A stretch of DNA of 64,000 nt from Halomonas sp. A40-4. Lineage in GTDB: Bacteria > Pseudomonadota > Gammaproteobacteria > Pseudomonadales > Halomonadaceae. The notes beneath the pieces were generated by a model. The model was not told the DNA's origin and ran no database searches. It worked only from the letters and a program-made list of their open reading frames with translations. The position numbers were made by a program, and so were the translations under genes. The DNA is taken from the NCBI RefSeq assembly GCF_015767635.1, contig NZ_CP065230.1:1302001-1366000 (forward strand). Reading direction: 5' to 3'. Shown piece by piece: positions 21,995 to 24,362 of the stretch; position 1 is the first letter of the stretch, and each line of letters opens with the position of its first letter.

Positions 21995-22053
21995 GGCACC
22001 ATCCTGGCGCTGGTGTCTGTGCATGCCCTCCCTGAGTGCACCAAAAAAGCGCG
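21995..22053 (+). promoter_or_regulatory. Two NtrC-like sites upstream of gpgP
   Basis: Both 17-mers follow the enteric pattern TGCACC-N5-GGTGCA. Site 1 (21995-22011) is GGCACC-N5-GGCGCT, nine of twelve matches. Site 2 (22037-22053) is TGCACC-N5-AGCGCG, nine of twelve. Centres are 42 bp apart, four helical turns, so dimers would bind on the same face. They lie about 162 and 120 bases before the predicted sigma-54 start, where NtrC enhancers usually sit. Confidence 0.55.
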
Positions 22054-22137
22054 CTGCAATGTCTGCCTCGGGGGCAACCGTTCTCGCCTCTGGGTATTCC
22101 CCCTCTCCACCTTATGGATATCAAAGCGTTAAAAGTG

Positions 22138-22154
22138 TTGGCACGTATTGTGCT
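22138..22154 (+). promoter_or_regulatory. Sigma-54 promoter of gpgP-gpgS
   Basis: The sequence reads TTGGCACG-TATT-GTGCT. The invariant GG (22140-22141) and GC (22152-22153) are ten bases apart, and the match to TTGGCACG-N4-TTGCW has one difference. Predicted start is near 22165, leaving a leader of about 72 nt. A weak sigma-70 reading (TTGGCA, 17 bases, TAAACA) uses the same bases and is the main alternative. Confidence 0.65.
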
Positions 22155-22236
22155 AGGCAATAAACACGCTGTCATCGCCATCTCCAACAAGTGGTGATTG
22201 AGCGCGTCCACCGCTTAGCAGTAGAGAGGCTGCGCC

Positions 22237-23145
22237 ATGCTTGAACACGCCAGCGCTTCGGCGCCCCCTGATGACCAAGTGGAGCTGTCGCGCCTCGTGG
22301 TCACCGACCTCGACGGTTCGCTGCTTGACCACCATAGCTATGACGCTTCCCCGGCGAGGACTTGGCTCGCCCGATTAAAGCAGGCGAAGATACCGGTGAT
22401 CCCCGTGACCAGTAAAACGCGTGCTGAACTGCTTCCTCTGCGTGAAACGCTTGGGCTAACGATGACCCCGTTCGTGGCTGAAAATGGTGCTGTCATCGGC
22501 CTTCCGCCTGGTTGGTGCCACGCGCGGCTGGATCGGCCGGGCAACGGCCGCGACGGGATGGTCATCAAGCATCCAAGCGTTGATATTGGTTTTATTCGGG
22601 CCCGTTTGAAGGTCTGGCGCAAACGGCTCGATGTGCGGTTTACCCCGATGAGTGAGCTTACCCTTGACGACTTGACGGGGCTGACCGGACTCGACGCTAT
22701 CCAGGCACAACTTGCCCGCCAGCGCGAGGGTAGCGAGCCCTTGCTGTGGCACGACGATGACGCGTCGCTGGAGACGTTTCGCCGCGCCCTGGAAGGTGAC
22801 GGCCTGCAACTTACCCAGGGTGGCCGCTTTTATCATGTTATGGGTCGTGCATCCGACAAGGGCAGTGCGGTCACCTGGCTGGTTGGGCGATTCCGGGCGC
22901 TGCGCGGTCGTGAGCCGCTGTCCATCGGCCTGGGCGATGGCCCCAACGACGTGTCGATGTTAAACGTCGTCGATCAGGCGGTCGTGATCCGTGGCCACCA
23001 TGAGCTGACGGTTGACCCTACTAACCCCCATCTTTACCGCACACAAGCCACTGGCCCCGAGGGCTGGGTGGAAGGCATGTCTCACTGGTGGGGTAACGCG
23101 TTTACGCCGACCAATCCGCGTGATGCAAAGGAGGCAAACGCATGA
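22237..23145 (+). CDS. gpgP: Glucosyl-3-phosphoglycerate phosphatase (MpgP-type HAD)
   Basis: 302 residues of the mannosyl-3-phosphoglycerate phosphatase branch of HAD-IIB. HAD motif I is VTDLDGSLLD, motif II is VTSKTRAEL, motif III involves the Lys of RASDKGSAV, and motif IV is GLGDGPNDVSML. It removes phosphate from glucosyl-3-phosphoglycerate to give glucosylglycerate, a compatible solute that contains no nitrogen. AGAGG precedes the start. The gene overlaps gpgS by four bases. Similarity to MpgP would allow mannosylglycerate, but the adjacent synthase is of the GpgS class, so glucosylglycerate is favoured. Confidence 0.85.
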   Translation: MLEHASASAPPDDQVELSRLVVTDLDGSLLDHHSYDASPARTWLARLKQAKIPVIPVTSKTRAELLPLRETLGLTMTPFVAENGAVIGLPPGWCHARLDRPGNGRDGMVIKHPSVDIGFIRARLKVWRKRLDVRFTPMSELTLDDLTGLTGLDAIQAQLARQREGSEPLLWHDDDASLETFRRALEGDGLQLTQGGRFYHVMGRASDKGSAVTWLVGRFRALRGREPLSIGLGDGPNDVSMLNVVDQAVVIRGHHELTVDPTNPHLYRTQATGPEGWVEGMSHWWGNAFTPTNPRDAKEANA

Positions 23146-24362
23146 GTGATTTCCACCAGAACGGCGTGATTACTGACTTTCACAATCTGACGCGTCGCCC
23201 GGTTGAGGCGCTGGAAGAAGAACTCAGCCAGTTTGCCCGGCGGCGCCCGATGGGGTTGATCCTGCCATCATTGTTTTCAGAGCTTGAGGGTCCGGCACTT
23301 TCGGCCATTGTCGATGAACTGGTCAAGGTACCCTATCTCGGCGAGATCGTGATTGGCCTGGACCGGGCCGATCGCGAGCAGTTTTTATATGCACGGGAGT
23401 TCTTTTCACGCCTGCCTCAGCACACACGTATCCTATGGAACGACGGGCCCCGCCTGCGTGCCCTGGACACCGAGCTTGAACAGCACGGGCTGGGCGCACT
23501 TGAACCTGGTAAAGGGCGCAACGTCTGGTATTGCGCGGGTTATGTATTGGCGTCTGGGCGGTCATCGGTGGTGGGGCTGCACGACTGCGATATTCTGACC
23601 TACGACCGGGGGCTGCTGGCACGATTGATGTACCCGGTTGCCCATCCCCGTTTTAACTACAGTTTCTGCAAGGGCTACTACCCGCGCATTGCCGAGGGAA
23701 AACTCAACGGGCGAGTATCGCGCCTGATGGTGACGCCGCTGCTGAGGGCGCTAAAAACTGTGTGTGGTCCGTTGCCTTACCTCGATTACCTGGACAGCTT
23801 CCGCTATCCGCTCTCGGGTGAGTTCGCCATGCGTAGCGACGTGTTGGAGGGGATCCGCATCCCGGCAGACTGGGGGCTTGAGATTGGCGTTCTCTCCGAG
23901 CTTCAACGCAATTACTCGCCGCGTCAGCTTTGTCAGGTCGACATTGCCGATGCCTACGACCATAAGCACCAGCCGGTCAGCGAGGAAAACCCTGATACCG
24001 GTTTGAACCGCATGAGCCTGGATATCGCCAAAGCCCTTTACCGAAAGCTGGCCACTCAAGGGATCACGTTCAGCAGTGAAGATTTTCGCACCCTGAAAGC
24101 CACCTACTACCGGCTGGCGTTGGACCTGATCGAGGCTTATGACCATGACGCCACTATGAACGGTTTGAGTCTGGATCGTCACAGCGAAGAGCAGGCCGTT
24201 GAACTGTTCGCCAGCAACCTGCTGGAAGCGGGCAACCTGTTTCTGGATAATCCCCGCGAACGACCCTTTATTCCCAGTTGGAACCGCGTTCAGGCAGCGG
24301 TGCCCGACATTCTAACGCGAATGCATGAGGCAGTAGAGCTGGATAACCAGGGCGATGTTTAA
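23142..24362 (+). CDS. gpgS: Glucosyl-3-phosphoglycerate synthase (GT81)
   Basis: 406 residues, the length of bacterial and archaeal GpgS enzymes. The N-terminal GT-A domain has EIVIGLDRADREQF, GKGRNVWYCAGYVLA and the metal-binding motif in VVGLHDCDILTYD. The acceptor region includes YPLSGEFAMRSDVLEGIRIP and DWGLEIGVLSEL. The C-terminal part is helical. It joins a glucosyl group from a nucleotide sugar to 3-phosphoglycerate in the cytoplasm; GpgP then dephosphorylates the product. The ATGA overlap with gpgP implies coupled translation. A hairpin follows the stop. Confidence 0.88.
   Translation: MSDFHQNGVITDFHNLTRRPVEALEEELSQFARRRPMGLILPSLFSELEGPALSAIVDELVKVPYLGEIVIGLDRADREQFLYAREFFSRLPQHTRILWNDGPRLRALDTELEQHGLGALEPGKGRNVWYCAGYVLASGRSSVVGLHDCDILTYDRGLLARLMYPVAHPRFNYSFCKGYYPRIAEGKLNGRVSRLMVTPLLRALKTVCGPLPYLDYLDSFRYPLSGEFAMRSDVLEGIRIPADWGLEIGVLSELQRNYSPRQLCQVDIADAYDHKHQPVSEENPDTGLNRMSLDIAKALYRKLATQGITFSSEDFRTLKATYYRLALDLIEAYDHDATMNGLSLDRHSEEQAVELFASNLLEAGNLFLDNPRERPFIPSWNRVQAAVPDILTRMHEAVELDNQGDV

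Follow-up and report, generated by a model that had tools for sequence, protein, structure and literature searches.

The two-gene operon gpgP-gpgS, located in the 64-kb stretch of DNA analyzed here (the window), is very likely driven from a sigma-54 promoter by NtrC under conditions of nitrogen limitation. This assignment to NtrC/RpoN, proposed in an earlier sequence-only reading of the region and very probably correct, is supported by the DNA elements observed upstream of gpgP, their conservation and their joint presence or absence among relatives, together with the regulator genes encoded in the genome and the matching promoters of two known NtrC targets, glnA and ntrBC. On these grounds, gpgPS is a well-supported candidate for a new target of a known regulator. 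The mechanism that we infer—covering induction by nitrogen starvation, NtrC binding, the transcription start site and a physiological benefit—would run as follows. Under nitrogen limitation, phosphorylated NtrC would bind paired 17-mers centered at about -162 and -120, which share one helical face and are separated by four turns; the bound protein would then loop to RNA polymerase carrying sigma-54 at 22139-22154 and open the promoter, perhaps assisted in this genus by an IHF-induced bend at about -40. Transcription of gpgP-gpgS would start near 22165, and glucosylglycerate, a nitrogen-free and negatively charged osmolyte, would be made.

Gene context and upstream elements of gpgPS

The operon resides in a complete 4.15-Mb genome, the nearest named relative of which, as judged by GpgS, is Vreelandella (Halomonas) subterranea. 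The start of gpgS overlaps the end of gpgP by four bases (ATGA), and a 423-bp intergenic region precedes gpgP, with a MotB/OmpA-like gene on its other side. The two genes form the pair expected of the glucosylglycerate pathway, a GpgS-type synthase adjoining an MPGP-family HAD phosphatase (NF040724 and TIGR01486, respectively); the score of GpgS (321.6 bits) lies below the 700-bit equivalog cut-off of NF040724, a model named for the methanogen GpgS, and the enzyme is therefore assigned by family rather than by equivalog. Matches of GpgS to mycobacterial GpgS structures in the PDB were weak. Within the Halomonadaceae, Chromohalobacter salexigens accumulates glucosylglycerate (PMC3308980), and the Chromohalobacter gpgPS loci have the sigma-54 element. 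The coordinates of all features are collected in Table 1.

Table 1. Features of the gpgPS locus (coordinates refer to the window; site positions are relative to the predicted transcript start; PWM scores come from sigma-54 and NtrC matrices drawn up from the generally known consensus rather than trained on the Halomonadaceae).
Feature	Coordinates	Strand	Evidence
NtrC-type enhancer site 1, GGCACCATCCTGGCGCT, centre about -162	21995..22011	+	PWM 13.3
Weaker overlapping NtrC-like 17-mer, TGCCCTCCCTGAGTGCA, about -133 (uncertain)	22024..22040	+	PWM 12.1
NtrC-type enhancer site 2, TGCACCAAAAAAGCGCG, centre about -120	22037..22053	+	PWM 13.4
Perfect IHF consensus, TATCAAAGCGTTA, about -40, between enhancers and promoter	22119..22131	+	Consensus match
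Sigma-54 (RpoN) -24/-12 promoter element, TGGCACGTATTGTGCT	22139..22154	+	PWM 17.7 of 20.1
Likely ribosome-binding site of gpgP, GAGAGG	22224..22229	+	Sequence; AGG motif before ATG kept in genus alignment
gpgP, glucosyl-3-phosphoglycerate phosphatase (HAD-IIB, MPGP family)	22237..23145	+	TIGR01486, 244.8 bits (cut-off of 164.75 exceeded)
gpgS, glucosyl-3-phosphoglycerate synthase	23142..24362	+	NF040724 GpgS_Meth, 321.6 bits, E 6.5e-96

The near-consensus sigma-54 promoter that the sequence-only reading had placed before gpgP is present: the element reads TTGGCACG-TATT-GTGCT, with the T of TGG at 22139, departs from TGGCACGN4TTGCW solely at -15 and carries its GG and GC 10 bp apart, as in the pattern TGGCAYRN4TTGCW. 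Its score was matched in 0.04% of 20,000 dinucleotide shuffles of the 423-bp intergenic region. The predicted start, about 12 nt past the GC, would leave a 72-nt leader to the gpgP ATG at 22237, on which no Rfam family was found at the gathering score. Sites were also ranked genome-wide by pattern searches: TGGCACGN5TGCW occurs exactly at seven sites in the 4.15-Mb genome—the gpgP element being one and the glnA promoter another—and a combined pattern of an NtrC half-site and a sigma-54 element has two matches, one of which is the gpgP upstream region. Elsewhere in the same genome, near 1664820 (L097), an exact sigma-54 element located between an AcoR-type-like regulator gene and a divergent oxidoreductase-like gene likely marks a separate sigma-54 target.

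Upstream of the promoter, NtrC-type sites 1 and 2 match TGCACY-N5-RGTGCA at 9/12 and 10/12 positions, respectively. The sequence-only reading had credited each with nine matches; the positions and the first count stand, the second count is higher by one, and the reported separation of 42 bp between the two centers was borne out. A single site of such quality arose in 0.7% of shuffles of the 205 bp upstream, and a second one in none of 5000. Both sites are imperfect (13.3-13.4 of a possible 22.3), and many relatives have stronger ones: the position of site 2 is occupied in sister genomes by TGCACCAGAAAAGTGCA (19.9) and CGCACCAAAAAAGTGCG (15.0), with site 1 kept in two close relatives only. The third, overlapping 17-mer (Table 1) is weaker or missing in the sister genomes. 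When two mismatches are allowed, the degenerate NtrC pattern occurs at 696 sites genome-wide against 488 in a reversed control, and is thus too frequent to be informative alone.

The IHF site is common to the closest relatives, and three further Vreelandella have a perfect site on the opposite strand, at about -52. Perfect IHF sites were found in 7 of 68 loci, where 0.16 would be expected, and six of the seven loci belong to this genus. This site is possibly a DNA-bending site in this genus. IHF as a general feature of the Halomonadaceae was rejected, the site being missing from most of the family.

The genome encodes RpoN (PF04552, 229.3 bits), NtrC (TIGR01818, 751 bits) and NtrB (NF008293, 347 bits). 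Moreover, the layout of palindrome and sigma-54 element seen at gpgP recurs at the glnA promoter (TGCACCTATATGGTGCG plus TTGGCACGCAACCTGCA) and before ntrB, at the ntrBC promoter (TGCGCCATTATGGTGCA plus TTTGGCGCGCTTTTTGCA). The glnK region was considered as a third positive control and discarded: its sigma-54-like site is imperfect, and an NtrC site could not be clearly made out.

We also observed a candidate small RNA on the minus strand (21953-21825), between the MotB-like gene and gpgP; 46 Vreelandella/Halomonas-type loci carry it ahead of gpgP. Its sigma-70 promoter (TTGGCA-N16-TATACT) would give a transcript of about 95 nt, predicted to run from ~21919 to 21825, with a fold of -39 kcal/mol and a GC hairpin plus T-run at the end. 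In a 35-sequence alignment, two-sided changes affect 7 of 22 consensus pairs and 99.5% of the cells pair. No Rfam family was assigned to the candidate at the gathering score.

Conservation and loss of the control elements

GpgS is encoded in 87 of the 121 Halomonadaceae genomes sampled, and the DNA upstream of gpgP was examined in 85 of these. The sigma-54 element, with presence called by score threshold, is kept in 67 of the 85 gpgPS loci and in 12 of 17 genera, at 25-154 bp ahead of gpgP and within flanking DNA that has diverged. Scores of at least 13 were reached in 61 loci (1.0 expected from shuffles) and scores of at least 17 in 32 (0.05 expected). Across 60 distinct element sequences, G-25, G-24, C-23, T-14, G-13 and C-12 are invariant, with most positions just outside approximately random—an invariance partly built in because the loci were picked by score, a circumstance that does not so affect the shuffle comparison.

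The NtrC-type sites, of the form TGCACCAN3TGGTGCA, are conserved alongside the promoter. Within 205 bp upstream, 17-mers scoring at least 12 occur in 58 of 68 element-bearing loci, compared with 0.9 expected from shuffles, and palindromes scoring at least 14 occur in 43 loci, compared with a mean of 0.2 for half-site-permuted palindromes; some are perfect or nearly so, e.g., TGCACCAAAGTGGTGCA in Salinicola corii. The sites are concentrated between -90 and -150 (median -119), and 43 loci have multiple sites, with spacings of 22-24, 40-43 and 62 bp, close to 21, 42 and 63 bp and thus to ~2, 4 and 6 helical turns. The commonest of these spacings is 40-43 bp, where the 42 bp at gpgP falls. In alignments, palindromes and promoter form islands in diverged DNA, and the variation of NtrC positions and spacings in helical steps suggests that the sites turn over under constraint.

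Promoter and enhancer sites also disappear together. All 18 of the 85 loci without a sigma-54 element likewise lack NtrC sites (best NtrC score, 6.8), and on a maximum-likelihood tree of GpgS the trait needs two changes—one separating a 17-row clade from the rest, the other a single loss in L045 (Modicisalibacter ilicicola)—against 22 with shuffled labels. A second set of 80 loci, with names attached and partly shared with the 85-locus set, showed decayed or missing sigma-54 elements in V. nanhaiensis (8.1), V. populi (-24 G changed to T), V. rituensis and V. zhuhanensis. Additionally, a gpgPS copy in Alloalcanivorax, with a GpgS 80% identical, has no NtrC site. The GG/GC pair and the 17-mers, for which the sequence-only reading had looked to an alignment of the family, are therefore kept far beyond chance but lost in a few relatives that retain gpgPS. 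These losses indicate that the control is lineage-specific rather than universal, and that it is old within the Halomonadaceae but dispensable.

Among 40 loci of other gammaproteobacterial families, no good match to the sigma-54 element was found near gpgP, and nothing outside the Halomonadaceae shares the sigma-54/NtrC layout, with the possible exception of one locus (L195, family f153). There, a weaker sigma-54-like sequence, CGGCACCGATGTTGCA, directly precedes gpgP, and 81 bp further upstream stands a near-perfect NtrC palindrome, CGCACCATAATGGTGCG (both within 2122-2218, numbered in the gpgS orientation); this layout possibly reflects an independent (convergent) origin of NtrC/sigma-54 control. 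A perfect sigma-54 match 919 bp ahead of gpgP in L170 was set aside, as it is accompanied by no NtrC site. In four loci outside the Halomonadaceae (L159, L170, L171 and L172), gpgP-gpgS belongs to a more extended cluster: it is preceded by a gene resembling P-loop kinases and followed by one of ~570-584 codons that may encode a phosphorylase. No such genes stand beside gpgPS in the window.

Other activators, other promoters and kinship

RpoN partners with many activators, and the sigma-54 promoter could in principle be driven by a different enhancer-binding protein that recognizes an NtrC-like site, with a signal other than nitrogen status. Some loci do combine strong sigma-54 elements with weak NtrC-type palindromes, H. 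korlensis, H. getboli and H. organivorans among them. We nevertheless regard such an activator as unlikely: the same palindrome precedes glnA and ntrBC in this very genome, most loci have it in strong form and at a suitable position, and no activator gene lies beside gpgPS in the 64-kb window.

Sigma-70 or sigma-38 promoters are common among osmolyte genes, and a weak sigma-70 pair overlapping the sigma-54 element (TTGGCA-N17-TAAACA) had been put forward in the sequence-only reading as the competing explanation. Both hexamers can indeed be read at 22138-22166, but the pair is weak, it is not called by a promoter scan, and its TAAACA is confined to the closest relatives. Across 68 loci, a -10 hexamer located 16-18 nt past TTGGCA reaches 4/6 matches in ten and does better in none, whereas the GG/GC pair is kept. 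It is thus highly improbable that the main transcription arises from this pair with the sigma-54 match secondary or accidental; an extra weak sigma-70 start elsewhere is possible. Finally, the notion that the conserved elements are due to chance or are a neutral by-product of genome kinship is barely credible, even though some rows are close relatives and element presence was threshold-called, since GG, C, TGC and the palindromes are retained across genera whose flanking DNA can no longer be aligned, with NtrC positions and spacing shifting in helical steps.

Nitrogen status and osmolyte choice

NtrC-dependent control of gpgPS, if true, would explain the synthesis of a nitrogen-free protectant when nitrogen is short. 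Glucosylglycerate is reported to accumulate at high salinity and nitrogen starvation (PMC11009771), and Dinoroseobacter shibae is reported to prefer this solute under nitrogen limitation (PMC9062515). These two sources, together with a title cited in PMC3662644, place the accumulation of glucosylglycerate under nitrogen limitation, at the metabolite level, in cyanobacteria, Dickeya/Erwinia chrysanthemi, Mycobacterium smegmatis and D. shibae. In the open-access literature searched, we found no account joining glucosylglycerate or gpgS to NtrC/RpoN (sigma-54) regulation, in agreement with the earlier remark that no described sigma-54-controlled gpgS operon was known to the sequence-only reading. 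The promoter would constitute a testable link between a nitrogen sensor and osmolyte choice, for which no transcriptional link in Proteobacteria was found in the open-access literature.

In a broader context, we consider it reasonably probable that the Halomonadaceae wired the synthesis of a nitrogen-free solute into the NtrC regulon, such that the osmolyte composition would be set by nitrogen status, either in place of salt or jointly with it, and nitrogen-rich ectoine would be spared when nitrogen is scarce; a similar arrangement may have evolved separately in a second gammaproteobacterial family. A direct genetic switch away from ectoine, betaine or glutamate, as suggested in the sequence-only reading, is supported on the gpgPS side only. 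In this genome, the region upstream of ectA has neither an NtrC-type site nor a well-placed sigma-54 element, and a decrease in ectoine, should it occur, would have to be brought about by nitrogen supply or other regulation. One prediction is that ammonium limitation could yield glucosylglycerate from ectoine-producing Halomonas strains.

Several known systems offer points of comparison. The glucosylglycerate accumulators listed above share with the proposed control of gpgPS both the solute and the physiological logic, whereas mycobacteria employ GlnR, a regulator unrelated to NtrC, in contrast to the NtrC/sigma-54 control proposed at gpgPS in the Halomonadaceae. For ectC of Halomonas elongata, an upstream sigma-54 promoter has been proposed from sequence only and is unverified according to a review (PMC5924519). 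This case likewise represents a proposed sigma-54 promoter for compatible-solute synthesis in the Halomonadaceae, but it concerns a nitrogen-containing solute and does not involve gpgPS. The closest architectural likeness is with NtrC promoters of the E. coli glnAp2 type, which combine a -24/-12 element with paired 17-bp palindromes ~100-160 bp upstream in helical register—and from whose targets gpgPS would differ in making an osmolyte rather than serving nitrogen assimilation or scavenging.
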